Part shown: piece by piece, positions 14,944-63,782 of the stretch
How the letters are laid out: every line of letters begins with the position of its first letter
Numbering within the stretch: the first letter of the stretch is position 1
DNA from: Paramacrobiotus metropolitanus
Lineage: Eukaryota > Tardigrada > Eutardigrada > Parachela > Macrobiotidae
Assembly (NCBI RefSeq): GCF_019649055.1
Contig: NW_026570256.1
Coordinates: forward strand, 310,001-374,000
Reading direction: 5' to 3'
Length of the DNA: 64,000 bases
Notes under the pieces: model-generated
Seen by the model: the letters and a program-made list of their open reading frames with translations, nothing else
The model's database searches: none
What the model was told of the DNA's origin: nothing
Translations under genes and position numbers: made by a program

Positions 14944-15043
14944 TTCCACGTTTTATCGCTTGCCAGAACGCATAATGGCAATTGCCACTGCCGGTGGCAG
15001 TAGCCAGTGGCAGGTGCCACTGCCACCTTTTATCCCCTGCCCC
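14944..15043 (+). repeat. TGCCA-rich dispersed repeat, copy 1
   Basis: Short palindromic blocks of TGCCA/TGGCA alternate with TTTTATC blocks, in the style CCACGTTTTATCGCTTGCCA and CCACCTTTTATCCCCTGCCC. The same organisation occurs at 37244-37360 and 40852-40968. This copy abuts the point where the gene fragment at 15041-15487 begins. Confidence 0.6.
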
Positions 15044-15487
15044 TGGGATGTTGCTACGATCCATTTTGCATCAGAATTCCATGCTGGCAGTATCATTTCG
15101 AAGATCTAGATAACTGCAAATTTGCTGCAGCTTTTCGGATAACACTGGCAGAATTTTGTCCAGTACTGGAGCGCAGTAAGGCGGAAACTCTGATCTCCTG
15201 GATAGATTCCCTGACAGAGAAAGATTTAGAAGTAAATCAGTGTATTTCGCCGTATCTGGAACTGTCTTATGAGCTGAGTAGACTACGTAGAACGGACAGG
15301 TGAGGATGAAAGTGGAAATAAGTTGTGCCATAAACTGGCTTTTTGGTTTTGCAGATGGGACGAAGAACCACCAAGCAGCTTGGATGATGTGATATTGAAT
15401 ATATCCAACAGGATTTCCACCGAAAGTTTGGTTATGCAGACCCTTGCTTTGCTACTGCCGTGTAGTCCAGGCGACTCTACAAAGTAG
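15041..15487 (+). pseudogene. 3' fragment of the Agenet/KH-F-box family (copy C)
   Basis: The exons are about 15041-15299 and 15355-15487, with a 55-bp GT-AG intron between them (phase 2). The encoded residues match the last about 130 residues of the intact gene at 31002-34800. This covers the CC-x-DPF start, the IP-x-W strand, the EFCPVLE/LISWIDSL helices, the YEL end of the exon, and the last exon with W-x-E-x-PP and the QTLALLLPC block before a TAG. The F-box exon and the Agenet/KH exon are absent. The homology stops abruptly at the TGCCA repeat, so this is a 5'-truncated duplicate. Its intron donor lies about eight codons downstream of the position used in the other copies. Its frame is otherwise intact. 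Confidence 0.75.
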
Positions 15488-19149: not shown

Positions 19150-22049
19150 TTGTATATAATCGATATAGGGACCAAAAAACGCTGCAGCTTGTCTTCAGTG
19201 GCTTATTACCATCTAAATATACAGGGCATTAATAACCGCAGTTCGACCAAGCATAATTTGGTTGAAAGTATTCTTCTCTCTGATGATAACATTTCTAAAA
19301 TTTTCTGTATTTCGGAATCTCATCTTTCATCTTCGGATCCTGATCAATTATATGAAGTCCCTGGATATAAGCTGTTTCGTAAAGATCGCAGTAAAGACCA
19401 CTGTAAAGTTCGCGGCGGAGGTCTCCTGCTGTATGTGCCCAATTATATCACCAGTAAACTCGTTGATTGCAAAGAAACGCATGCTCATTGTGAAAGTTTG
19501 TGGGTTTTATTACAAATCGGTAAGCGAAAAGTATTGGTGGGTTTGATTTACCGTGCTCCGGATTCCAACGCTTCAGATACAAAATATTTGTTTGCGCATA
19601 TCGATAATACCCTGTCTCGGTTCCCTGATTGTGATTACGTGCTTACGGGAGACTTGAATATCGATACTTCCATCAGTAGTACTCCGTACCACCGCTATTA
19701 CCATGATCTGCAAACAAATTTTAATCTCGACGAAAAGGTGATAGGTTATACTCGCGTGGCCAACAGGAAAATGAAGAAGGATAACATGAATTCTATCAGC
19801 TGCACCAAAATCGATACTATGCTATGCTCCCCACTTTCCCTGTATGCCAGTATGCCTGCTACCGATGTCAGTTTTTCGGATCATCGCCTGTGTCGTACTG
19901 TTGCACAGTACAAATCTAAAATTCCAGTTCACAAAACAATTCAATTTCGATTGTGGAGCCATACGGACGATAACAAGTTTTTAAATGAAATCGGTGAAAC
20001 AGTGAAGCGCTACGAACAGTATGATGAACAACGTGACGTAAATGAAGTTGTGGAGAATTTCGTGCAAGACCTCTCAGCTGTGGTTGACAAATGTTTTCCT
20101 ACACGCTCCCGCCGTGTAAAGCGTGCATCTCCACCGTGGATGAACGATGATTTAGAAGCTATGCTAAAGATTAAAGACCAACTGTACGAAGAGAAATGCA
20201 GATCACGTGGGACACCGATGTACGATCAGCAAGCCCGAGAGTATAAGCGAGTGAAGCTAGAAGTGACCACGGCTATTTTAAATGCTAAAGAGGCGTTTTT
20301 CAAAGAAAATCAGCGCAGGAGTGACGTAGTGTGGAAAGAAATCGGCAGAACAATGAAAAAAGATGCGAAACCTAGTGCGGTTGCAGTTAATTTAAATGCG
20401 ATTAATCAGCATTTTGTTACAATGGGCCAACACGGGGCTCCGCATGATCCCCCAGAGCGACCGCCACTGGAGGACGATAGTAACGCTTTGTTTTCTAGGT
20501 TTGCGAATGTTGATACAGCAGTGGTGGCTTGGGATACTTCATCGAATGGCCCCGAAGAAAGAAAGCCCCGGACCAAACGGGATGCCACCAAAACTGCTAC
20601 AGAAAATCACGCCGCTCATCGCTCCAGTCCTTACGCAAATGGTGAATCAGTCGCTGAAGGGGGGAGTGTTTCCTTCCGTCTTCAAAAAAGCCGAAGTTTA
20701 CCCCTTGCCAAAAAGTGTTTCCCCGCAGTGTGTTGATGACTTCCGCCCCATTTCGCTACTTTGTAATTTCTCGAAGGTGTTTGAGAAATGCGTCCAATTG
20801 CAGTTAGTGCGTTTTTTGAAAGAACAACAGATCTTATCCCCAAATCAGTCTGGATTCAGAGACGGTCATTCTTGTGAAACGCTATTGTTAAAAACAACGG
20901 AGAAATGGAAAAAGGCAATGGATAGCAGGAATGTGACAGCAGTGTTTTTTAGACCTCAAGAAAGCATTTGACAGTGTAAGCCATTCGCGACTACTGGACA
21001 AGATGAAGAAAATCGGAGCCGGGAATATCGTAGTGAAATGGCTACATAGTTACCTTACCGGCAGAGTGCAAAGAGTACGAGATGGGAAACGAACATCCGA
21101 CTGGCTGCCATTAACATCTGGCGTCCCGCAGGGCACAGTGCTAGGACCAATCCTGTTTACCATCTACATTAATGATGTACTTACTGTTAACACAGAAGAT
21201 TGTGAGGTTGATTGTTTTGCAGACGACACAATTGTCCATGCAACTGGAAAAACGAAAAGTATTGCTGCCGCTAAACTGAACGCTGGACTGGTGCGTGTCG
21301 GCCAGGTTATGGAAGAAAATCTCTTGCACGTAAATGGAAAGAAATGCCAAGCCATTTACTTATGTTCTGACCGAAACAAACAACCGGATCCGGAAGTCGT
21401 CATCAACAGGTCGGTTGTCAGCATTGCAAAATGTTTACGGTATCTCGGCGTTGAGATCGATTACCACTTGAAGTGGAGTGAGCAGTTCAGAAAGGTGCAG
21501 CGGAAGGGGAATTTCGGCATTGCCATGATTAAGCGGGCACAAAAAGGGCTCAGCATGTCACAGCGCAAAGGTCTTTACCACGCTTGCTTTGGATGCCATA
21601 TCGGACACCAGTCGCCGGTATGGTCTGCAGCGTCTTCGACTGAGCGCGACAAGCTGGACGGACTGCAACGTAAAGCTCTGAAAACCATCACTGATTACAA
21701 GATGCCGGTTACTCCGGAACTGTATCAGAAGTTGGGTATTCCTCACATATTCGACCGATGGCGTCAGAGCGATGCGGTGTGGTTGTTCAAGTTCTGGAAC
21801 AAAGATCAGTTCTCACTTCCGGCCTACCTCCTGGACATGATCCAAGTAAAAGATAACACCGCGCACTACAACTTGCGGAAGCCGGCCCGGATCGATGTTA
21901 CGCGGGCAAAGAAAGTTATCGGAGGGTCGACTATGGAAATGCGACTAAAGCGTCTTCTTGATAAAATTCTTGCTGTTAATCCTAAAATTCTCGAAGCTAG
22001 TTCTGTGCCTTCTTTTAAATTTCTACTCAGATCTGTTAATCTCTCTTAA
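19150..22049 (+). pseudogene. Non-LTR retrotransposon (LINE) endonuclease-reverse transcriptase, two frameshifts
   Basis: The N-terminal part (19190-19910) is an APE-type endonuclease with LN-x-QGI, CISESHL, YRAP, TGDLNID and SDHRL blocks. A linker and the reverse transcriptase follow, with SPGPNGMPP, DDFRPISLL, NQSGFRDGHS, LTSGVPQGTVLGP and the catalytic FADDT block near 21220. A C-terminal helical region ends at a TAA at 22049. The frame changes near 20545 and again at the T-run 20945-20950, just before the DLKKAFD motif. No ATG opens the endonuclease frame, so the 5' end is probably truncated. The domain order fits the Jockey/CR1 group; the exact clade needs a tree. It is now inactive unless the indels are sequence errors. 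Confidence 0.9.
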
Positions 22050-24205: not shown

Positions 24206-25769
24206 TGCGTTTCGGCATTACATGCGCAATCATCCTGACCAGCATTTTGTAAGTGTGATTGTTGACATGATCACTAATGGTGCAGATATTGGTTAATTCG
24301 GGCCTGTTTGTTCTCGTTTTACCGCTAACGCTAAAACTGCGCGCGATCACCATGACGCTTCGCTAAAAGCTATCGAAAAAGAAGTTTTGTTGGGACATAC
24401 AGTCGGTCCTTTTAAGAAGCCGCCATTTAAGCATTTTTCTATCAGTTCACTCGGCGTGCGTGAAAAGAAGCTGAGTGGACATCGAGTTATTCTTGATTTA
24501 TCCCGGCCAGTTGGTAATAGTGTCAACGATTATATCGATGCTGAAGCGTACACGGTCTCTTATTGTGCAGTTGACGATGCCGTTCAATTGTTGACACGTA
24601 TGGGAGTCGGGGCGTTAATGTGTAAACAGGATATTAAGCATGCTTTTCGCTTATTTGCTGTGCGTTCTGCCGATTGGCCTTTGTTAGGCTATAAAGTTGG
24701 AAATCACTTTTATTACGATATTGTTCTGCCATTCGGTGAAATATCGTCTCCGCGTCTTTTTTGCATGATCTCTGACGCTTTACATTGGATTGTGGCAAAT
24801 GTTTCAGGAAAATTTAGCATTTTGCATTATGTTGATGATTTCTTCATTGTTGAACTTACGGTGGAAGCCTGCCAGTTTATCGTTAACCTGTTACTGCAAA
24901 TTGCTCAAGATCTCGGTATTCCTTTTTCCTTCGACAAAGCTGAAGGTCCTTCAACCTGTTTGCCGTTTCTTGGTATCACTTTTAATTCAGTGTCACAAAC
25001 TTTATCCCTCCCAGCGGGTAAATTAGAACAACTTATAGCGTTAATTAATGTGTGGCTGGCGCAGCCCATTTGGTCCAAGACTGAGCTTCAAAGCCTCTTC
25101 GGCTCATTGCAGTTTGCCGCAAAGTGTGTTCCTGCTGGACGTTTATTCACGCGTAGACTAATTAATCTGCTATCTTCGCCAGATCCAAATCGAATCGTTA
25201 TCACTAATGATATTTATGATGATCTTCGTTGGTGGGCAGAGTTTTTGCCAAAGTGGAATGGCTGTGCCTCATTCCTGTCTTTTAATTGGTCTCATCTTGA
25301 CGCTCTTCATCTGTATACAGATGCAGCTGCCGGCACCGGTTTAGCCGCGTATTTTGATGGGGAATGGTTTGCATGCCGCTGGCCATCACAGGAAATTGCT
25401 CAACGGTGTATCGCATTTCTGGAAATCATTCCTGTTTATGTTGCGTGCTTAGTTTGGGCAGGAAAATTTCGGAAACAACGAATTATTTTTCATTGTGACA
25501 ACATGGCGGTGGTTCAGTGCTGGTGTACACTTAATTCAAAAAATTCTGACATTCTGCATGCTTTGCGAAAAATTTTAATGGTTGCAGCTTTGAATAATTT
25601 TACAATGACTGTAAAACATGTTTCGGGCATTGATAATGTAATGGCCGATTCACTTTCCCGTTTCGAATTTGTCCGTTTTTGCGCAGCTGCTCCGAATGCT
25701 TGTATGCGTCCAGTAAATGTGCCTGATTTTTGGTCTGATATCTTGCAGATGCAACAGTCTACCAGTTGA
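24159..25769 (+). pseudogene. pol: DIRS-like reverse transcriptase-RNase H, one nonsense codon
   Basis: The ATG at 24159 gives a pol frame broken by a TAA at 24294-24296. It sits in a conserved GP block where an aromatic codon (TAT/TAC) would be expected. Downstream are GHTVGPF, a VILDLSRP strand, DIKHAFR, LPFGEISSP and the catalytic YVDDF box at about 24830. RNase H follows with YTDAAAGTG near 25315, the ECN/LEI region, HCDN and a terminal D-x-LSR block. DIRS and Ngaro elements have this RT-RH order. The ORF ends TGA at 25767-25769, whose last base is the first base of the next ORF's ATG. Confidence 0.88.
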
Positions 25770-26643
25770 TGCAGCATCATATTTCCGCATCAACTCGGAA
25801 AACGTATTTGACCGCATTGAATCAATTTTTGCAGTTCCTGTCTGCTTCATTTTGCAATTCGTCACTGTTTGCCGAAGTCAACGTGCTGAATTTCATTGCT
25901 CATTTATATCGTTGTGGCCATAAGTTTTCATGTGTGCGAACATATCTTGCCGGAATCACAAAATACGCGCTTGAAAGTGGTGTATCTGATCCCGTATTGT
26001 CCATAAACGTTCAACATGCATTTAAGGGATTTCAGCGGTCGGCTCGTATCATGCCTGATAACCGAATGCCAGTTTCATTAGACATAATGCGATTGTTAAA
26101 AGCCAGAATTATTGCTTATCGTTATATGACCAATCATTACTTTGGTGCGCAATGTGTTTTGCATTCTTTGGTTTTTTGCGTATCTCTGAATTTGCAGTTT
26201 TGTTGAGCAATAAGCACACTGTTTAGTTTCGACACGTCACCTTTGATGGGCATCATGTGTCACTTGTTATTCCAAGTTCTAAAACCGACCAATTTTTTCA
26301 TGGTTATACAGTGCATTTTAATTCAACTGAGCGTTCAATTTGTCCTGTTCGTGCATATATTCGTTATTCGCGATACCGTGCCCATATTGATGTTCAAGCT
26401 CCATTTTTTGTGTTTCGTGATGGGTCATCATTGTCTCGGAATTATTTTGAATGTTGTTTACGTCGGTTATTACCGGAATTTCCTGATATTCATTCTCACA
26501 GTTTTCGTATTCGCGCTGCAACCACTGCGTTGGCGATGAGTTCATCTTGTCAGCAAGTACAGTCTGCTGGACGTTGGAAATCTTCGACATTTTCAAGTTA
26601 TATTCGGGAGAATCTGCCAATTCAATCATTCCGCATGTACTGA
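25769..26643 (+). pseudogene. Tyrosine recombinase of the DIRS-like element, frameshift and stop
   Basis: The frame starts at an ATG that overlaps the pol stop (TGATG). The N-terminal SAM-like part (STRKTYLTAL) runs to about 26150. The frame then shifts by one base, and FFGFLRISEF continues it. A TAG lies at 26224-26226. The catalytic half then reads IPSSKTDQ, CPVRAYIRY, the H-x-x-R block HSFRIRAATT, GRWKSSTFSSYIR with the tyrosine nucleophile, and a stop at 26641-26643. Tyrosine recombinases replace the integrase in DIRS/Ngaro elements. The element is inactive as read. Confidence 0.88.
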
Positions 26644-28215: not shown

Positions 28216-30116
28216 TAGTCTATATAATTACGGTTACAACAAACGTGCGCCGCATTAGAAACCAAAATCGCACCGCGCTAGAATCTAACAAAAACATCCG
28301 CGCCAAAAAAAAACACTGAACGCCATATGTTGAAACTTACCGATTCATTTTTTTTTCAACGGAGACGGCGATCGTGATTTGCGGGTGCCCACCGTTGGGC
28401 AACGAAATCTGGCTACTTTGAGGCTGGTGCCGCCAGTATTCGGTTTCTGACGCGGAGAGATCGTCAGATCAAGGTCATGATGCAAATTTTCCACGTCAAA
28501 ACTGTCTTCCCCAACGACCTATTGCAAACAAATCAATAATGATCATATCTGTGTTTGATACTTTGATATTGAAATATTCAGTATTTGATATTTGAGTTAT
28601 GTGTACCGGCCACCAAACTTCGTGATTGTCAATCTTTCCTTTGTTTCGGTGGCTGCTGCACTGATGGCTTGCCAGTTTTGCTTGATATCCTTCACTTTTC
28701 GGCCCTGAACATTTGCCGCCAGTCTCCACTTTAATGATCCGCGAAATAGTATTCACTAGAATTAGTCGGCTCAATCTATTGGTCAAAACGGCAATCAGCT
28801 CCATTACAGTTGATCTCTAGTGTCTTCCTGCATAAAAAAAGGGTTGCAGTTAGCTGTACTACTTTTAAAATATTGTTAAAATACTTTTAAAATTTATATG
28901 GCGTGGATATTTACTCTGTAGACGATGTGATTGTCAAACGCCAAAATTACTTACATAGTGCATCCGATTAAATCTGCATTGCTTTCAAAACTTTTGTCTT
29001 GTATTTCTTAACGACAAGTCAAAAAATCTTAATCTACCGATATTTTGGTAAAAATTCAACTTTACCTTGATTGGTTTAGTAGGCAACGCAGATAAGTATG
29101 TACGAGTATGTATCCGTAATGAATAGCGTGATCGAAAGTTTTTGCGGTAAGAGAGGCTTTTTGAGCAGATGTTTATGCGTGACCCCTAAGACTGATGGGG
29201 TCTTCCTACAGTGCAGTCACCTTTAGCGCACCTTCAGTAAGATGCACATTACTTGCTGACAGTATTACTCATACTCGTACAAGAAGCCGTCATTTGCCGC
29301 TCTTGATGATTTATCATCTGCCGACAGGGAAGTTCTGTAAAGTTTGTAGATATGCACTGCCGCTGTTAGAGTTGCTCAAAAATACGTGCCCCTTTTGAAC
29401 AATCAGAATATGCAGAAGATTGCCGTGACTGTATCCACTATCCACGAACACGGTAAGTGTATTCGCCACACAGAACATCAACAGCAAAACGGTTATAAAC
29501 CGGTGACGAGCGGGGCTTTTAAAGTTTTTGGCAGCCAGATTTCTCCGTTGCGGCTGCGCGCATGCTGCATCATTATTAAGTGGGAAATTATTCAAAGTCC
29601 GAGAATCAGACGGCTAGTGCACGGCACATCAGTGCGCGCGTTCTTTGCAGTGCAGTTTAATGAAATTTTCTGTACAAGAAAGGACATTGCGGAGAATATG
29701 GATGAGCCAACCGATTTCAGCAATACCGCAGTGAAGTATTGTCTACGGATGCATAAAATATCAATAGATCTTTCAGCATTTACCGCTGCTGATTCTGGAG
29801 TCAGTATTACGCAGCTGCATCGTACACGTTCGTTCGTATAATTATGATGCTGTACAAGTATTGGTAATTTCTTGATTTGTACAATTTCCGTTTTTCCAGC
29901 GATACTACTCCAGGATGTACGTATGGCGATTAGTTGCGGCGCCGTGCATGCTTATTACAGAACAGAGAGAAGATGCCGATGGGATCGATGCTCCAACCAG
30001 TCTGCTGACTGTGCTGAGATTCCTGTTTAATTAAACGCAAAGTTTAGCGTTATCAAGTATGTGGACAAGTATTTTGTACCCTCTAAATTGCAGTGCATTG
30101 TATATCTATATTATAC
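28216..30116. other. Unresolved region with weak ORFs
   Basis: A minus-strand ORF at 28496-28804 starts with ATG behind a T-rich TTTATGCAG acceptor-like site. It could be an exon of an unknown protein. On the plus strand, an ATG at 29410 leads after 15 codons to a GTAAGTG donor-like site. Neither is supported by homology or a second matching exon. Confidence 0.25.
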
Positions 30117-30318
30117 ATATATAGGGGCGAAAGTAAACGCGTTCCACCGTTCCCTGTACTGCTGCCGTCACCCGCCTGGAGTGTGACGTTACGGCAATAC
30201 ATGTGGTTAAATCTGGCGCGGTACATAAGCGCCATGTTCAGCCACAACGTCAAACTCCAGTCGGGTGACGGCAGCAGTACAGGGAACGGTGGAACACGTT
30301 TACTTTGCCCCTATATAT
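30117..30318. repeat. 202-bp foldback (snapback) element
   Basis: Almost the whole length is an inverted repeat. ATATATAGGGGC at the left matches GCCCCTATATAT at the right. The about 70-bp arms, including TTCCACCGTTCCCTGTACTG, pair with only a few mismatches. A second internal stem GGCGC/GCGCC closes the loop near 30214-30234. It is either a MITE or a long hairpin RNA locus. Confidence 0.85.
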
Positions 30319-31001: not shown

Positions 31002-34000
31002 ATGGAAAATTTTTTATCGGCGCGCATTGGCAGAGATCCTCTCATCACTGGCGTTTACGAACGTTTTGCTGTCGATATACTGGATGAGAATGTCACTTAT
31101 CGTGGGTACGTTTGTGCAGTCGATGATGACCACTGTATGGTGCGAATTGGCTCGATGCAGGAACTGCGACGTGTCGCTATGGATAAACTGCATCTAATGG
31201 ATTATCGCGAATGCAAACGTATACATCCTCACACTGTACCGGAAGAAATTGACGTACTGGTCAGTGTTGATGACAATCAGCCAGAATCGTGGCAGCCAGC
31301 TAGTATTATAGGCGGCAAATTAATACAGACGTTCTCGTTGGTACATGCAGAAGTGAGCCTGCCGGGTAATGTGCCCAGACAATTCTGTGTCCTTGATTCT
31401 TCCGGTGCCGCTTTTAAACGGATTCGCCGCCGCGGTTATCTTGGAAATCGCGTTACTCCGCAGTCGTTTGTTAATCAGCAGATCCCGGTTTCAAAGTTTA
31501 CTTCGTATTGTACACACTTCGCTGATACTCTGCAAAAAGTTCGAGAAATGCCACGATTTCACAGCCGCTTCATGCAAGAGACTTATGGCATTATGTTCCT
31601 GGGTGCGACGGATGATCACATTGATCTGTTGGTCGAGGAGAAATACAATCAGAATGATGGCGTTATTCTTTTGGTGGAAGGAAAACCCAGTTACAAGCTA
31701 CCGGACCACATAATGTATGAGCGCATAGCGAATGCTGTGGATCGGTTTATGATAGACTTCATGCGGGCAACAGACAAAATTGCCAACACCGTTCTGAAAG
31801 AGCTTGTCGCTCTAATCGATACGGATCAAGGTACTTATTATGCATCCTAACAGCAATAAAATTAAATTGCTCCAGCAAGTTTAAACATTTCACGGGTTCG
31901 GCTATGGTTAACACTGTAACAAGAGACCGGCATGCTCCTCAATACGCAAATTCTGACATCTTTCCCGCTGACTGGTATCCGACCAGTGCTGTGCAGCAAT
32001 GTGCACTATGGCGCATGTGTCATCATTCATAGAGATAAGCACGGGTATTTTTTAAAAAACTGCGCTATCTTGAATACGTGCCATATGGTTTTTTTGACCA
32101 TTCGGAGCGCAGATAAGCTCCGGATTGTGATGACACACGTTACCAGTTGTTATCTACTGCGCGTTATGTACAAAAAAAACAACTGGGGTTTTTATAAGAA
32201 ACAACTCTGTATCTTTATACGGCGTGAACAGAATCTGGCACTGAACTACTGTAGTATGCGAGGGATGCGTAAAGAATAAAAAACTTGGACCTTTAAGGAT
32301 AAGTGCAGTTACAACAACGAAGTGAGGGCGTCCGTATAAAGCGATAGCCAATTCGGTAGTCAATTTGCAATTTAAATTTTATTACGCACGAGATCGTGCG
32401 CACATATGTTATGATTACAATGTAATGCTCCAGGCTTAAGGCTGTATTGTAATGTTTCAGACTTGAACAAATCTCACGAATTCCATTTTGATGATGTACT
32501 TATGGAGCTGAGCACGGAAGTATTTTCTTTTATGGACGTGTATGACCAGCATCAACTCCGCAGGTAGGGATGCGGCTTTTTCTGACATGAAGGATCGCAT
32601 ACGCAAAGTGGGTTCTTAAATTGACACGCATGAGAATAACCGTTGCTGTCGTTTTGACTGGGGCTGAACGGAAATAGGCGAGGGCTGTAAGTTTACGTGA
32701 GTTCGGTAACCCATATTCTGACTATGACAGATTGTCAGCGTGTCAGACAGGTCGGAAAATCAGCTATCACTATTCACTAACACATACACATTTCGGCATT
32801 CATAAACTGTACTTAGCATTAACTGACAACCAAGCGATTGTCAACAACGATAAAAATAATCAAATTCAAAAGTTCTTTCCCTAATTATCTAAGAATTTCT
32901 GGTTTTCCATTATTTCGGCGTTTCCCAAAAATTGCCCACTAGTTACCGGCAGTGCCAGTATTCACCACCCGCGTTATGCCCACCCGCGCAATTTGCCCAC
33001 CCGCGCTATGCCCGCAGCAGTTCTTTACTTAACAGCAGCAATTTTTTAACATACCAGATGGGGAGTGCATAAAGCATAGAAATAAAGTTGAAACTGATGT
33101 CCGTTGGAATAGAATAAGTATTTGCTTTTCAGGAGATCACCTGGTTACTGGTTAAACTGAACATCACACAAATTCAATACCAAGTCATCTAGCAGTGGTT
33201 GTCAAATTTATATACGGTAATTATAATTTACCCGTTACAGCAATTTCACCATACCAAGCATCAATCACCCTCCAAAACCATCAATAACTGCTTGCGGGGC
33301 TCATTTTAAAAAACCCGGCCAGAACGTTTTGGTTTACTTTAAAACCGCTCCGACTCAATTAGCAGAAGAAGATGTGCAAAAACTGTAGTAAAGTTGCTTC
33401 TCTATTATTTTCCACTTGAGCGTCACCATTTTACACCATGCATCGTAGATCAAAATTAATACAATACAGGGCGCAAATACAACACATGTATTTAGTTCTG
33501 GGTCCCCAGCCATGCTCAGTGACCAAGCGAACAAATAGGTCGAGTAAATGGCACTTGGAGCGAAATGGTTTAGGCCAGGGGTAGAAGGGGCAGTTTAACC
33601 TCAACTCTGGCAGCAGATTAGAAGGAATCCTTAAACAACTGTAACGCTGCTGCGTGATAGATTTTCGCTTGACCGTAAAAATGTGCAGTGGGCGTAAGTG
33701 GCTCTAGCACACCGAAAAAACCATTTTGAGGGTCCAGGTTAGAGCAAGAGAATTCCCAGTTTTCCTTTGCTCGTGATACTTTGAATAAGCTTTTTATTTT
33801 TTTTAGAACGTCCAAATTTTTCCATCAACGGTTATTCTGTAAAGCACTTCGGCGGTGCGTGATGTTGCCAAACCAACATAAACATTCCATTGAAAGTTTG
33901 AGGGTCGGCCCATCCGGCTCTGGTTACCGGGACTTGGCATATGTCATCGGGAGCACAATTAGCCAAGATGCCAGGATTTTGTATTTCATCGATGACTGGG

Positions 34001-34800
34001 AAGAATGCTTGTTCACCCTTGTGAAAGTCCTAAAGGTCATGGACGTGCAACTCGACTGGCTGGTTATCGCCAACAACTCCAGACTTTTGCTCAACGAATT
34101 TTTGCGATTTCCCAAACCCTTTCCCATGGTGTATACATATGATTTCGTTACTATGTACGGAAATTATCTCCATGCAAATCAGACAGATATTTATAAGGAT
34201 TACGCTTGCATTTGCCAACATCTAGCCTTGAAGAACTGCTGTTTCAGTAGCAAGTTATCGATATGCTTCAGAGAAGTGTTGTGGCTAGACGATGAGCTAC
34301 TGCATCGGGTTAGGGGCCCTGGACGATGGAATTTAAGATGTTGCCGTGATCCGTTTTTTATTGCGATCCCACGATGGTTACACAGTTTTTCGGAATCTGC
34401 GGCACAAATATACGAGGCTTCCTTCCGGTCTGCACTAGAAGACCATTGTCCAATGCTAACAGAACGCGCAATGGATAACCTTTTCCACTGGCTGAATTCT
34501 TTGACAAGCGAGGCTTGTGAACCAAAAGGTTGCATTTGGCCGTTTATTACGCTCTCCTACGAACTGTACGCATCGAGCAGCAAACATAAGCAAAAATGGC
34601 AAACTAAGTGGATTTAACTTTGCAGGTGGAACGAAAAGCCACCCAAGCATTTGGACGACATTGTAGCCGATATATCTCGTAAGTATTCGCCAAAGAGCTG
34701 CATTTTGCAGACAATGGCCTTGCTACTGCCGTGTATTAGCGGCAGTTTTTGCTGTTTTGCTTATGTAGTCGATGGAGAAGCATTACAAGGTCCAAGGTAA
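31002..34800 (+). CDS. Agenet/KH-like plus F-box protein (copy A), intact four-exon gene
   Basis: Exons 31002-31830, 32461-32563, 33807-34565 and 34626-34800 join in phases 1, 2 and 2 to give 621 residues ending TAA. Every junction has GT-AG. Residues 18-67 form a Tudor/Agenet-like unit (YRGYVCAVD, DHCMVRIGSM, MDKLHLMD). Residues 80-155 form a second unit (EEIDVLVSVDD, PESWQPASII). About 180-245 resembles the KH0-type fold that follows the Agenet pair in FMRP/FXR proteins. Exon 2 encodes the F-box (FHFDDVLMEL, VFSFMDVYDQHQLRR). F-boxes bind SKP1 in SCF ubiquitin ligases. The last 310 residues are family-specific and end in an MALLLPC block. The FMRP likeness is my reading of motif order, not a search result. 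Introns are 630, 1243 and 60 bp. Three related copies lie in the window. A role as an SCF receptor recognising RNA-bound or methylated partners is inference. Confidence 0.8.
32966..33013. repeat. Three tandem CACCCGCG units inside an intron
   Basis: CACCCGCGTTATGCC, CACCCGCGCAATTTGCC and CACCCGCGCTATGCC follow one another in the second intron of copy A. The rest of this 1.2-kb intron shows no other feature. Confidence 0.6.
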
Positions 34801-37002: not shown

Positions 37003-37338
37003 CTATATTACTATACTCGTATGTTCCTCACAGCCTACCCTGGCGATCCAGACCGGTGGGCCATTTGGTCCGGCTGGCTCTTCTTCCATTTTTTTGCATT
37101 CCGCTGAGATCTCTCTCATGCGCTCCGCGGAATAGCGGCAGATGTCGTTAACCTTATCTTTGTCCCAATCCATATATTTTTCAGTGTGGCCTTTCGAAGG
37201 GAGCAATTCGTCGAGCCGATGTTTACCAGCAGCTCTCATATCCGGCAGGGTGTAAAACCTGGCACTGGCAAGTGCCTGTGGCGTTGCCACTGGCATGGCA
37301 ATGGATAAAACCTGGTATCCTGTCCCCCTGGCACACAA
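37003..37338 (-). CDS. Possible exon of an unknown gene
   Basis: The lower part of this minus-strand ORF (37003-37250) encodes a charged, helix-rich stretch (WDKDKVNDICRYSAERMREI, then EEEPAGPNGPPVW) with a coding look, and ends near a GTAGGC donor-like site. Its upper part is derived from the TGCCA dispersed repeat, so the true exon would start at about 37245. No partner exon was identified. It lies downstream of the five-exon gene on the same strand. Confidence 0.3.
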   Translation of the reverse strand: MCARGTGYQVLSIAMPVATPQALASARFYTLPDMRAAGKHRLDELLPSKGHTEKYMDWDKDKVNDICRYSAERMREISAECKKMEEEPAGPNGPPVWIARVGCEEHTSIVI

Positions 37339-37360
37339 TAAAATATGGCAAATGCCAGAA
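37244..37360 (-). repeat. TGCCA-rich dispersed repeat, copy 2
   Basis: The reverse complement is about 90% identical to 40852-40968, including the blocks CCATATTTTATTGTGTGCCA, ACCAGGTTTTATCC and GCCAGGTTTTACACCCTGCC. The two copies are inverted and 3.5 kb apart. Confidence 0.85.
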
Positions 37361-37709
37361 AACTAAAATTATTATTAAAGTTATAGCTTTTAGTACGATG
37401 TTGTAGCTTTGGGTTTTCATAAATAACTTTACCGCAAAGCGCAAACCAACGAATTACTGCAATTTACCAACCGAACGGTATTAAAGAGGACAATTTTACA
37501 CATAGCATAGTAAACCGAAAACGTGACAGTGCGACAGTAAAGCATATCCGTCAGAAAGTAATCCATAAACTGCTAAATAAAGACGATTAAATTGCAACTT
37601 TTAAGCTAAACCGCTAAAGAAAGGTAAACTGCTAAAGACAAAAAAGGTCTTAACACCAAACGTCGTGCGGTCACTCGTGCCGACGAATACAAGATGGACT
37701 ATTACTGTA

Positions 37710-40700: not shown

Positions 40701-42004
40701 TAAGGTTTTGTAACTCTTGCCTATGTACGGATCTAACTCATCTACGTATTTGCAACTATATACAATCGATACTTACTTACAACGTGTACGGTACAATGAT
40801 GACACACATCAGTATTTTTCTCCTTATTTATTAAACGCTGTGCCACGTGCTTTCTGGCACATGCCATATTTTATTGTGTGCCAGAAGGATAGCATACCAG
40901 GTTTTATCCCGTGCCATGCCAGTGGCAATGCCACAGGCACTTGCCAGTGCCAGGTTTTACACCCTGCCCTCATATCCAGGCTGGAAACAAAACACATGCA
41001 CTGAGTAACGATCTCGGCATTCTGCACTACTTTCTACACGAAAATGGAATACGTGACCAACGGCTGCGCTCTGGTCTGCCAATGCACCTCAAAAGCTAGC
41101 ATGCATTTTACTAGTTATATTTTGTTTTAATGCTTCTACACTCAGTAGTCGCATAAAGTCGAGAAGCGCCAATGAAAGGCATAAATCCTGTAGGTTTTTC
41201 CTACAACGGCCGAAGCACGCCAGAATGTTTTCTGCTGGGTACTGAGATAAGACAACTGGAAGTGACATTTACGGATCAACCAGGCATCAAAGCTGTCACG
41301 CGTTCAAGTACAGCAGGAAAGCAATATCAAAGTGAACAATACAAATTATGTACATACGTACTCCCGCAGTAACTACTCTGTACTGTAAACCAAAACCAGA
41401 AAAACTAAATGCAACCGGATAGATTGTCACCAAAGGAGCATTATTACAAACAAACATTAGTAAATAACTAGGCGCTTTTATTAGCTGTAAGGTTCTTACT
41501 GTTCTTTCAGCGGCTTGTTTGAATGCTTCGACTTTCTCCTGACTGCGGTGGCCGAAAAGAATGAAGTGCATTTTGTGCGAAGCAACCATCATGTTGCAAT
41601 CGTAATAATCGCCTTTCATGTTGTGCTGGCGCATAAGGTCCGTCAACGCCTTGGTTGGCTTGACTGAAAGAAAGGAGATGTAATTATTCCAGTAATACGA
41701 GTTTTCGTTTTGAGCAGGATGTTTTAACTGCGCTTACATCTCACAAACAACATTTTATTTTTGATGTATTATACGACAAAGTGTTTAACTTAATTTGGCA
41801 TCTTAGTAATATCTAGCGGGTCATGATTGTTGATTAATGTAAAATTTCTCTGGAAATAGCAGTGTATTTTCATCATTCCTAAGGTACCTAGGCAAGAATT
41901 ATTTTTTCCCCGTACTTACATCCATGGGCTTCGTGTTGATCGAAAATGAATTCCATCTCAAAGTAAAATCCGTCAACTGGTCGAGGCGTGGTGGAGGATG
42001 CCAT
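37710..42004 (-). CDS. Five-exon gene of unknown function, 261 residues
   Basis: Minus-strand exons are 42004-41920, 41663-41500, 39263-39175, 38647-38416 and 37925-37710. All four joints keep frame (phases 1, 0, 2, 0) and use GT-AG sites with T-rich acceptors such as TTTCTTTCAG and CGTTTCAG. The ATG at 42004 lies 3 bp after a TTTTTTTGCAG acceptor, so a 5' UTR exon is likely. The first two exons encode a compact alpha/beta region (GFYFEMEFIFDQHEAHG, then MMVASHKMHFILFGH, KVEAFKQAAERT). The middle is a basic, Ser/Pro-rich, probably disordered linker. The last exon encodes an ordered 71-residue end (VTGELLTGTISNAYF, PSDIIILPVVRDR). I recognise no family. A KH-like reading of exon 2 is possible but weak. 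The 2.2-kb second intron contains the dispersed repeat at 40852-40968. Confidence 0.75.
40852..40968 (+). repeat. TGCCA-rich dispersed repeat, copy 3
   Basis: Inverted partner of 37244-37360. Two CCAGGTTTTA blocks flank a palindrome-rich core (CCAGTGGCAATGCCACAGG and GGCACTTGCCAGTGCC). It lies in the second intron of the five-exon gene, on the opposite strand to the copy at 37 kb. Confidence 0.85.
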
Positions 42005-54818: not shown

Positions 54819-57387
54819 TTACAGTGAGAGATATGCTCGAATGCTGTCCCATTCATGCGGATAGGCGAGTGACCGCACCCAACGAGCATGAATACTCTTG
54901 ACCTTCACGTAAACGTCATCCGCGACAGGTGCAAAATTACTGTCCAGCGCCCACATGAATTTGCTGGTCATGCTCTCCCAATCTTGGCAGCCATCCAAAA
55001 CGAGTTTTGGGATAGTGACTTGCAGTTGATCAATCTCGCCCCGGAACTCGCGGGTGAGAGGTTTCATCCACGTAACCTCATGGGCTGGCAGCCGTATAAG
55101 TCTGACTATACTTATAGATGAATCAAAAAATATTTGATATAAAGCTGGACTAAAAATATTGCTCAGTTTCCAGTTGTGCAGCACGATACGTTGGCTGGTG
55201 TTGTGGTAATACTGTAACCATACTGTCCCACCATAATTCCCGTAATAGTTAGCGTTCTCAGGGTCCGACCACCTACCATATCCGCATATGCCACCGGCAT
55301 GGGGTAAAGTGTAATCTTTGAAAACTAATGTAGGCCACTTGATTTGCATGACTGATAACAAATTCCATAAGTAGTACTTGTTAGCGAAAGGTTGCAGTAT
55401 AGCCAAGCTCTTGGTGGTTGAGCTGATGGTACGGCTCAGCAGGACTGCTCCTCTGAAGCAGTTGAAGTTGACGGATTGTGTGTTGTTAGTACATGTCCCC
55501 AAACTGATGCTGATGTGTTCGGTTGCGCAACGACTGCTCAGGAGCTCCTGCCATAAAGCGCACGCTCTGAATACAGCGAAGCCAGATATCAACAAAACGG
55601 ACGCTGAATTATTTACGAGTAAACTTCCGAGTTCTTCGTATTTTTTAAGCATTTTTGTGAATTACAATAATAATGAACTCTGTGTGGAACTACTGGCAGG
55701 CTGTAGTCGAACGCACGTTAAAAATATTTATTAGTATATAGTACTATCTGTATATACTATTTTCCCGTCCTCACCGCTCATGGTCAGGATCACGTATTGG
55801 CTAAAAATTGCCATTTTACCAATAAAAACACAGATTCCAGTACTCTACCCAAGAGGCGGCCACCAGGCTTGCAAAGAACAAAAGCTGTATGAAATCAATA
55901 TCTGAAAACTTGTACCTTGTAAAGTGGACAAGTTTCATGAACTACGAAGTATGACTTCAAAACTAGCTGGTACAGGAACCGACAGCTACGCCGTTTGCGC
56001 TGGGCCTTATTTGCCGTCTTAAAATTGTTCACCGGCAGGACCACCGTGGTAAAAATGATAGGTGCTGTGCAGTAGTTCGTTGGTTATTAATTTTATGATT
56101 AGGTTATTCATGATAAATGCTGCGCATTGATGCATAATAAGGGTTATTCATGAATCATGATTATTCTTGTCTTGGACTTATGGGGCACTTGGGTAAGATT
56201 GACCATAATATCTGCCCAGAGCGTACTGTGCGTATGAAGGCACCTTGGTTTTAAAGCATTAAGTACAAATTTTTCTTCACCTTTTCATTTTTTCACATGA
56301 ATGCAGTTCCAGAAAAGAAAAGATTTCGCTCAGGAGGACAGGCGGAAGATTACCAATAGAAGCACAATTCAGCTGGTCAGTCCGTGCATCCACAAGCAGA
56401 GAAAGGTATCGGGACTTTCATACTGCATCAGTTTAATCTGTTAATAGGCACTGAAGCTCGATAGAAAGCCGCTTGCTCGATTGTTCATTGACTCGCGATA
56501 TTTTATTATTTCGCTGCAAGCGGTATATTAACAATGGATTCTCTACTGTGGTATACTGTAATTCCCAGCACAATCGGGAATCTCGACTTTCCAAACCTGA
56601 TTCGCAGAGAAGCTCTTCACTTTCGCTAAGGTCAGCGCGAAAGTACGGTGGCAGATCGTCCCGGGTGGCTAGATGGGTCAGCAGCATTTCCGACAGAGCT
56701 GTGGACATCCGCTGCGCCGTTTGTGCGTCAGCTGACAGACTGACAACAATAAACATGCATCCGTCCGGTTGGATGCGGAGGTGAAATCGACAGCAATCCG
56801 ATAAGGTGGCCAACGCTTCATCGTGTCGCGAAAATGCTTGATGATCCGCGATCTGTCGGAAGCGTCATTAAAATGTGTTGCGTTTTGTCAAACGGAACGA
56901 AAAACTTTCTGAACATTAGTCCATCGACTCGGCACAGCAGCGGCGGATCGGTGACCGGCATTTGGACGGCAACCTGGCATTTATCCACGAATTCCATGCG
57001 AGCCTTGTGAGACGCGCTCTTCTTCGTTTTGACGCAAAATATTCGGCAAGATGTGCACGCAGTGACTCTTCTAACGATAACAGCTGGCCGAAAACGAAAT
57101 GGCCCGTCGTCTTCGTCACGGAGAGCCGCAAATACCCGCTTGCCGGTATACACATTCCGGTGGATGTCCTCAATGAACGGTAAGGGTCACACGCGGGCCG
57201 CGTGGATCCAGCCAGGTTTGACTTTTGTGGACCTGAAGTGAATGTAGGCGTAGTCTACGGAGATATTCTGTATGTTTCCCAGCCAATACACGTTGTCATC
57301 ATTGCGAACGACGACAGTGTTCTCGTAGCTCATTTGCTGCGCATCAAATAAGAGCCGTTCATACGGTGGCAGTGACGATGAAATCAT
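54819..57387 (-). pseudogene. Agenet/KH-like plus F-box family (copy D), disrupted
   Basis: On the minus strand, exon 1 starts at an ATG at 57387. The first Agenet-like unit (VYWLGNIQNISVDYAYIHF) comes before a TGA at 57187-57189, at a position where Trp fits the flanking PLP. The second unit (FAALRDEDDGPFRFRPAVIV) follows, then RKFFVPFD. A one-base frame change lies near 56850. After it comes a KH-like segment (ALATLSDCCRFHLRI, then MFIVVSLSADAQTAQRM) close to FMRP's KH0 pattern. The F-box exon ends at 56281 (LPPVLLSEIFSFLELHSC) with GTGAAG and joins in phase 2 to the exon starting at 55566. That exon runs to a CT/GTAAGT donor just before 54819, the same codon phase as the YEL/W joint of copies A and B. 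The last exon was not found. The upstream limit of the F-box exon is unclear. Confidence 0.65.
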
Positions 57388-57453
57388 TTTGGCACGAGTC
57401 TTGGACCTTTGAGAAAACAAGAGATATTTATTGCAAACCCGGTGCATTTGCAA

Positions 57454-61619: not shown

Positions 61620-63782
61620 ATGGAGCGTTATTTTCTACCGCGGATCGGAAGGTACCCGCTTGTCGCTGGCGTATATGACCGCTTTCTAGTGGATATTTTG
61701 GGCGGTGATGCTGTGTATCGTGGATACGTGTGTGGAATCGACAATAATGACCACTGTATGGTGCGAGTGGGTTCCATGCAGCGATTACAGCGCATTCCCA
61801 TGGATAAACTGCGTTTGGTAGATCCCGAGGAATCCAAATTAATTCATCCAAATACATTGCCAGAAGAAATCGAGCTGTTGGTTAGTGCGGAGGAGAATCA
61901 GCCCGAATCCTGGCAACCCGTCGTTCTTCTTGTTGACGGCACACTCATGGAGAATGTATCCCTTGTAAACGTAGATGTATGCGTGTTTGGTGATTTTGTC
62001 AAGCGCTATTTGGTCCTGCATAGCACAGAGATCGGTATGGCGTTCAGCTGTCTCCGCCCACGCGGATATCTCGGAGCGCCAGTCACACCACAGTCATTTC
62101 GTCAAGTGACAATCCCCATCGCTCAGCTGATGTTTTACTCCCACGCAGAACGTCGCAGTTACGAATTTTCGGATAACACTGAAGATACTCTAGAGCGAAT
62201 CCGGGAGTTTCCGTCATTTCGTAGTCGTTTTTTGCGAAATACTCGCAATATTATGTTTCTCGGCGTTAGCGAAGACAAAGTTGAGCTGCTGTGTAGAAGA
62301 GGCTATAAACTAGAAGCCGACGAAGGGCTCGTGTTCTCGGTATCCGGAGAGTGGTATAAAAGACTGTTTGCTCCTGGGTCAGACACTATTATTCCGTGCC
62401 GCCGCGCTCTGGAAGAGATGCTTACCATTATTACGTTCCAGCATGGTAATTGTCATAAGAAAATTTCCTTACTGTATTGTGTAAACTTTTGCCTCTAACC
62501 TGTCACAATTGCAGACCTGAACGAGCTGGATGAAACCCGTTTTGATGACCTTTACGTGGAACTGTGTCTGATGGTTTTCGGTTATTTAGATGTTTTCGAC
62601 CAGCACTGCCTCCGCCGGTAAAGAGCCGGTAAAGAACTCAAAGCGCGCTTACCCAGATCAGTAGCTCACAGTAAATAAACTGGGCTTAATTTAAGGCTTA
62701 ACTAATTTTATTTTATTTCATCGTATGTTGTTAGAAGTCAAGTTACGCTCTTGTTGCTTTTGTATAGACTGTTTGTTTTTCAGGTCGTGCAGTTATTTTG
62801 ACCATTTATTGTCGTCGGTTGTTATCCAGCAATTTATAATTCTGCCATATCAGCCTGAGCATACGACACAGATTTTGAGTTATTTTACCTGCCGTGAAAA
62901 CGTCTGTGAAATGGCTTACATTCTTGCGAGCTGTGTTACCACGAAAGCCAGAATTTTTATCTCACTGGCAATTGGAAGGACCGGCTACGCCCAGTCACAA
63001 TGGTACCACGATGTTTGGGCGTGCAGCTTGATTATCTGGTCATCGCCAACAACTCCGAGCTCTTCCTACACGAATTTTTTCCATTTCCACGGTCAGATCT
63101 CATGTTGTACACGTACGACTTAGTGGACATTCAACCCAATTATCTGTATCTGGCCGAAGGTGCTGGTGTTGATTATGCTTCCCTTTGTCGGCGTGTTGTA
63201 CTACAAAATTGCTGTTTCAATAGCAGATTATCGATATGTTTCATAGCAATTATGATGATCGATGCAGTTCAGCATACGAGTATGTTCATGCCGGAAGCGC
63301 CTGAACGACGGCACATCCGATGTTGTCATGACCCTTTTCATATCACCATTCCTCGTTGGCAGTACACTTTCACCAGTTCATCGACACCCACCTTTGAAAC
63401 AACCTTCAGGTCCGCGCTCGCGGAGTTTTGTCCGGCAGTGAAGAGCAGACAGGTGGACTCCTTATTGCGTTGGCTTGAGTCCTTGGCACCTGAAGATTTA
63501 GAACCCAGAAAGTGTATTTGGCCATTTATTGCGCTGACTTATGAGCTGTGGGTTTGCTTGAACTGCAAAAGCTTTTGCAGATATTCTCATTTTCATAACG
63601 GGTTTTTATAATTGGACAGGTGGAAAGAAAAGCCTCCCAAGTGTCTAGAAGACGCCAAAAAAGACATTTCCACCAAATTTTCTTCGAATAAATTGATGTT
63701 GCAGACACTTGCTCTGTTGCTACCGTGCATTACTGACGGATTTTGTTCCAATACACACGCGGTGGACAACGAGACGCTATGA
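61620..63782 (+). CDS. Agenet/KH-like plus F-box protein (copy B), one frameshift
   Basis: Exons 61620-62445, 62515-62617, 62784-63547 and 63620-63782 match copy A in order, phase (1, 2, 2) and sequence. Exon 2 has the same length, 103 nt. Introns are 69, 166 and 72 bp. Exon 1 shows YRGYVCGID, DHCMVRVGSM, PESWQPVVLL and the KH-like FRSRFLRNTRNIMFLG block. Exon 2 encodes the F-box (TRFDDLYVEL, VFGYLDVFDQHCLRR). Exon 3 changes frame near the T-run 62954-62958, where copy A has one more base (ATTTTGTAT against ATTTTTAT). After it the frame continues as GVQLDYLVIANNS, then IPRWQY and ALTYEL, and exon 4 ends in TLALLLPC and a TGA. If the missing base is real, the protein loses its C-terminal half. 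If it is a sequencing error, the gene is intact. Confidence 0.75.

Follow-up and report, generated by a model that had tools for sequence, protein, structure and literature searches.

What would a protein do that carries an N terminus like that of the fragile X proteins ahead of an F-box? The question is raised by a gene of the tardigrade Paramacrobiotus metropolitanus, here called copy A, at positions 31002-34800 (+) of the 64,000-nucleotide (nt) stretch of DNA that we analyzed (contig C36, positions 310001-374000; hereafter, the window), with searches extended to the 170-Mb genome of this species. Copy A is a four-exon gene with a 621-amino-acid product. It belongs to a family of many copies that share its exon structure and domain order, and its N terminus is homologous to the N-terminal domain of FMRP and its relatives FXR1 and FXR2. 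We consider it likely that the members are substrate receptors of SKP1-CUL1-F-box (SCF) ubiquitin ligases. The module architecture and exon structure, which an earlier note had read from the sequence, were confirmed.

Gene model of copy A

Exon 1 (31002..31830, +) comprises 276 codons plus one base and encodes the FMRP-like N-terminal module. Exon 2 (32461..32563, +), placed by an exact splice model, is exactly 103 nt long and encodes the first part of the F-box. Exon 3 (33807..34565, +) encodes the end of the F-box plus a C-terminal domain without a recognized fold, and exon 4 (34626..34800, +) encodes the remainder up to the stop codon. All three introns have GT-AG borders. The product is identical to that of NCBI LOC129589716 (annotated as uncharacterized) except at one residue (V124A), and within the splice range scanned, the four-exon model was the only one within four residues of that entry. 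At the differing site, LOC129589716 has the residue of a near-identical second copy at C36:17409. This near-twin (C36:17409-21019) is separated from copy A by 324 kb of the contig and represents either a recent duplication or an assembly duplicate.

Homology of the N-terminal module to FMRP and FXR

As a single sequence, exon 1 of copy A retrieved nothing convincing from Pfam or the PDB. Its PDB matches to a ribophorin-like protein and proteasome alpha-7 were judged to be due to chance, and a Pfam match to DUF7329 (E = 0.028) was below the family cut-off. A protein-collection search with this exon likewise gave nothing useful, as the exon-length query shut out full-length relatives.

Exon 1 has 54 genome matches at E <= 0.001, 29 of which were aligned (alignment A1), many partial, stop-bearing, and near-identical ones being left out. 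Six columns are invariant, including Trp97 and Arg142, and mean identity declines from 46% in the first Tudor domain to 39% in the second and 32% in KH0. Searched against the PDB, the 29-paralog profile placed entries for FXR1, FXR2, and FMRP at ranks 1 to 6 of 15 (E = 1.6e-5 to 1.3e-3), with a designed protein at rank 7 (E = 0.016). At E <= 10, the Pfam model Tudor_FRX1 matched five of the 29 members individually (best E = 0.0082).

The animal's own FMR1 is a separate gene on contig C5, with KH_9 and KH_1 domains. Aligned to its N terminus by hhalign, the A1 profile gave 145 collinear columns (P = 2.1e-7) and a score of 52.8, whereas the best of 200 shuffles reached 20.5 and the reversed profile 15.8; the FMR1 Tudors alone scored 38.3, and FMR1 KH0 alone scored 18.2, which is not significant. 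When FMR1 was combined with two distant relatives into one profile, the match (P = 8e-11, columns 24-206) reached 76.0 for the whole (shuffle maximum, 18.5) and 57.9 for the Tudors (maximum, 23.0), and none of 60 column shuffles attained these values. The KH0 part alone scored 22.0 against this profile, versus a maximum of 13.3 in 60 shuffles.

AlphaFold modeling of copy A residues 1-276 yielded two folds of the Tudor type and one resembling KH, at a predicted local distance difference test (pLDDT) value of 73; modeling from two sequences gave an unusable model (pLDDT of 37.7). The first Tudor/Agenet unit spans residues 22-65 (31065..31196, +; strands 22-27, 32-40, 44-49, 54-59, and 63-65) and is also recovered by hhalign to the own FMR1. 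The second spans residues 84-133 (31251..31400, +; strands 84-87, 96-108, 111-119, and 125-133) and contains the invariant Trp97. The KH0-like segment, residues 156-275 (31467..31826, +), is drawn from this model and the profile score and has the order strand-helix-helix-strand-strand-helix. All 10 chains that Foldseek matched to the model at E <= 0.001 were FMRP/FXR chains, and FMRP/FXR also took VIA ranks 1 to 6, with residues 19-256 aligned to FMRP 4ova at a root mean square deviation (rmsd) of 8.3.

The earlier note had proposed homology to the FMRP/FXR N terminus and named structure prediction as the check. The paralog profile, hhalign against shuffles, Foldseek, and VIA agree on that homology, and the fold check on residues 1-276 found FMRP/FXR folds and no different one. 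Its order of two Tudor/Agenet units and a KH segment stands in its first part: a tandem Tudor/Agenet of the FMRP type is present in the family, on both profile and fold. For the KH0 that probably follows the Tudors, Pfam KH_9 is negative and the predicted fold positive; this is a weaker case than that of the Tudors, drawn from the AlphaFold model and a profile score of modest size.

FMRP/FXR come first by four routes: the A1 profile, the N terminus of a distant relative described below (C49), VIA, and Foldseek. The sequence matches of the first two include neither UHRF1 nor SGF29 nor any plant Agenet protein, and the KH-like part comes next in FMRP order. It is therefore highly improbable that the N terminus, instead of being homologous to FMRP, is a generic tandem Tudor of the wider Royal family, such as those of UHRF1, SGF29, or plant Agenet proteins.

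The suggestion that the module reads methylated proteins fared less well. Methyl-lysine Tudor readers bind through an aromatic cage. Trp97 is present in 29/29 A1 members and aligned with an FMR1 Trp, but where FMR1 continues with a Tyr, copy A has Gln98, so that only the Trp of this adjacent aromatic pair is kept. The pair lends the suggestion no support; judged on it alone, methyl-lysine reading is neither supported nor excluded, the evidence being neutral.

F-box and C-terminal domain

The F-box had been assigned to the separate 103-nt exon. The exon length held exactly, but the domain is not confined to that exon: searched by itself, exon 2 matched no Pfam family, which taken literally is the outcome that the note had named as refuting its F-box, whereas the 66-amino-acid piece obtained by joining it to the start of exon 3 matches PF00646 at 23.5 bits, over the cut-off of 20.5, with the match extending into exon 3. 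A homologous exon 2, followed by a GT donor, was found in 21/21 loci examined, these being the loci with an exon-2 match (the set excludes L066, where none was found, L070, whose exon ends differently, and the first of the L075 genes). Exon 2+3 pieces were assembled for 17 of the 21 (set A3), with copy B of the window, L073b (stop codon), and L076 and L077 (exon-3 start not placed) omitted; at E <= 10, 15 of the 17 matched PF00646 and 16 matched PF12937. Among seven full-length members scanned, PF00646 was over the cut-off in two (P0002 and P0004) and PF12937 in none. The F-box is borderline in copy A and clear in relatives.

The C-terminal domain encoded by exon 3 matched nothing in the PDB, and nothing in Pfam at an E value below 0.19. 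Its alignment (A6; 15 of 73 genome matches) contains 15 invariant columns in 15 sequences.

An independent route from FMR1

Members with the same architecture are also reached from the other direction. With the own FMR1 as the query, the genome gave 86 other places at E <= 10, 12 of them at E <= 0.01. The best non-self place, C49:52088 (E = 8.3e-7 over FMR1 residues 6-177), belongs to a gene that we read from 2.35 kb and joined at a splice picked by eye. With its N terminus as the query, human FMRP was matched over chain residues 6-164 (E = 3.5e-10), and FMRP/FXR made up the first six of 10 matches; the Agenet score of the gene (14.1) is below the cut-off. Downstream of the module is an F-box over both cut-offs (PF00646, 30.8; PF12937, 33.4). 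The C49 module scores higher against human FMRP (42.9 bits) than against the tardigrade's own FMR1 (35-37), which suggests that the gene did not arise from the local FMR1 by recent duplication. Starting from the F-box side, an FMRP-like module (profile E = 0.0013) lies upstream of one of the four top F-box loci (L034, C92:424451).

Family size and F-box pairing

The earlier note described an F-box family in the window; the family stands but is much larger than the window copies. The C49 module as a query gave at least 151 matches at E <= 0.001 (from the best 150 of 670 candidates), including FMR1 at 1.5e-7, and the L034 module gave at least 149 at E <= 0.01 (from the best 150 of 384). Merging these with the copy A exon-1 and FMR1 (E <= 0.01) match lists yielded at least 254 module places outside FMR1, on 85 contigs, with fragments and matches up to E = 0.01 included.

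The F-box complement of the genome is itself very large, with 1,080 first-look PF00646 candidates; for pairing we used the best 150 of these, all over the cut-off. As the module lists were likewise limited to the best candidates, the pairing counts are lower bounds. Within 1 kb, 23 of the best 150 F-box matches lay downstream of a module on the same strand, versus 0, 0, and 0 in the three other placements; the corresponding counts were 34 versus 0, 2, and 3 within 2.5 kb and 39 versus 1, 9, and 5 within 4 kb. At least 34 F-boxes are therefore paired with a module within 2.5 kb; most of the 254 module places were paired with none of the best 150 F-box matches, the only ones compared. The 86 FMR1 matches gave 17 versus 1, 0, and 0, and the best 12 gave 5 versus 0, 0, and 0.

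For the window family, 33 of 48 merged exon-1 places are followed on their own strand by an exon-3 match at no more than 2.5 kb, with none on the opposite strand and seven upstream on the same strand, such as tandem copies would give (the exon-3 list, with some of the 73 matches omitted, comprised 51 merged places). The protein collection returned nine family members, all from P. metropolitanus and all labeled "uncharacterized" by NCBI; none came from other tardigrades, which the window-subfamily queries and word filter in effect did not cover.

Proposed function and alternatives

From known F-box biology, the F-box would bind SKP1-CUL1. The FMRP-type module and the C-terminal domain may bind partners, and proteins so bound would be ubiquitylated; SKP1 binding, substrate recognition, and the partners of the family are inferred. 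With so many diverged copies, tandem and dispersed, the family could then cover a wide set of specificities, as expanded F-box families do in nematodes and plants. In FMRP, the N-terminal domain is a known platform for protein interaction and self-association. Many of the interactions of FMRP, homomerization among them, are promoted by this domain (PMC9553004, in excerpt). We tentatively suggest, as a rather doubtful extension, that the fragile-X-type domain serves as the interaction module of a several-hundred-member tardigrade class of SCF receptors targeting ribonucleoprotein (RNP) or FMRP-partner proteins.

Several results speak against the reading of the family as SCF receptors with an FMRP-homologous N terminus. 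Genome-wide, Pfam KH_9, the KH0 model, matched only FMR1 at E <= 1, and of 27 Tudor_FRX1 matches at E <= 10, only FMR1 and three other places were over the cut-off; the Pfam FMRP models gave no match to the 621-residue copy A at E <= 1. Compared with whole FMRP chains, the copy A model reached a template modeling score (TM-score) of only 0.34-0.48 at an rmsd of 8-11 Å, so that the domain arrangement either differs from that of FMRP or is badly predicted, and pLDDT varied from 46 to 73 across five AlphaFold models. On the F-box side, full-length copy A scored 15.3 bits with PF00646, below the 20.5 cut-off, and was thus among the five of seven full-length members that failed it; the profile of F-box pieces matched F-box proteins in the PDB only at E = 0.21 or worse; and just one of the four top F-box loci (L032-L035) had a module within the 3.1 kb examined. 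Copy B is frame-broken, and no SKP1 co-expansion was seen, with four SKP1 (PF01466) matches genome-wide.

Among the alternatives, one possibility, to which we give a minor but real chance, is that the FMRP-type module serves mainly for self-association, so that the F-box proteins dimerize or join FMRP-like assemblies while the C-terminal domain alone picks the substrate. The homomerization cited above points this way, as does the good conservation of the exon-3 domain, with its 15 invariant columns. Among four copies that are ~60% identical, ratios of nonsynonymous to synonymous divergence (dN/dS; NG86, the Nei-Gojobori method, with dS saturated in more distant pairs) were 0.30-0.54 for exon 1 and 0.20-0.30 for exon 3, with exon 3 lower in 6/6 pairs; exon 2, of 33 codons, gave 0.09-0.62. 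However, dN was similar in exons 1 and 3 (0.24-0.30 versus 0.21-0.24), and the gap in dN/dS therefore arises mostly from dS.

It seems unlikely that the F-box acts outside SCF, with the protein serving not as a degradation receptor but as a scaffold that binds SKP1 or as a regulator of translation or RNPs. The weak F-box of the window subfamily and the action of FMRP-type modules in RNPs would suit such a role, but the F-box of the C49 gene and 34 module-paired F-boxes are over the Pfam cut-off.

Very unlikely, in our judgment, is the view that the copies are largely nonfunctional by-products of duplication. The window contains reverse-transcriptase elements, stops interrupt 8 of 54 exon-1 matches and many exon-3 matches, and the frame of copy B is broken; yet 46 of the 54 (some of them fragments) are free of stops, the GT donor after exon 2 is kept at every locus examined, and dN/dS is well below 1 in the four copies, which therefore appear to be under purifying selection on average.

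Other family copies and mobile elements in the window

Copy B (61620-63554) carries homologs of the first three exons of copy A: exon 1 (61620..62445, +), 45-50% identical to that of copy A and with its donor read; exon 2, the first part of the F-box (62515..62617, +), placed by homology to the copy A exon; and exon 3 (62782..63554, +), where a frame change near 62950 means that the gene is broken here or that the assembly is in error. Homology matches also identified copy C, an exon-3-type fragment only (15043..15279, +), and a probable remnant of an exon-1 start (29450..29515, -; E = 0.057, profile match E = 0.003). The minus-strand region 54819-57453 looks by eye like a broken relative, with Tudor-, KH-, and F-box-like stretches in shifting frames and an exon-3-like open reading frame. 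Its pieces have no relevant Pfam match and its KH-like piece matched neither the PDB nor the FMRP profile; it was not counted as a family member.

A 79-nt inverted repeat (30125-30311; 87% complementary, 29-nt spacing) that resembles a miniature inverted-repeat transposable element lies ~700 nt upstream of copy A. Downstream are 118-nt inverted repeats (37244-37361 and 40851-40968; 92% complementary, 3,489 nt apart), perhaps transposon ends. An element like a long interspersed nuclear element, in several frames, occupies 19150-22049, with reverse transcriptase (RVT_1, E = 1.7e-16) in 21003-22046. A second reverse-transcriptase element lies at 24387-26643 (RVT_1, E = 1.2e-7); its last open reading frame, which has no Pfam match, looks by eye like a tyrosine recombinase of the DIRS/Ngaro type.

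Comparison with known systems and implications

To our knowledge, the N-terminal domain of FMRP has otherwise been described in the fragile X proteins. Like FMRP, FXR1, and FXR2, the family has a tandem Tudor followed by a predicted KH-like part, with homologous sequence and predicted fold. Unlike them, the copy A product has no Pfam KH family match at E <= 1, and hence no KH1-KH2 after the N-terminal domain, whereas the own FMR1 has KH_1; an F-box and an unassigned C-terminal domain stand there instead. The family resembles the F-box superfamily, the SCF substrate receptors, in having PF00646/PF12937 followed by a further domain and in its large expansion, and differs from it in the FMRP-type domain N-terminal to the F-box and in a C-terminal domain for which neither the PDB nor Pfam gave a useful match. 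Large F-box expansions are described in Caenorhabditis and plants (PMC8665587 and PMC3030570, in excerpt). In mammals, FXR1 is a substrate of SCF-FBXO4 (PMC5688124, likewise in excerpt); there, too, the fragile X and F-box components work jointly, but as two proteins, whereas here the module is within the F-box protein. As the earlier note had supposed, no described protein with both an FMRP-type N terminus and an F-box was found in open-licence PMC, by titles and abstract beginnings, which do not prove absence from print. The family joins known domains in a new way and is a candidate for a large F-box subclass.

The many natural variants of this module upstream of F-boxes in one animal could be used to map binding by the FMRP domain. 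They also bring to light, in an animal that tolerates stress, a class of candidate ubiquitin-ligase receptors that lacks annotation, although any tie of this class to tardigrade stress tolerance is speculation. If the reading of the family as SCF receptors is true, this tardigrade class would stand beside the expanded F-box families of nematodes and plants and yet be unlike them.
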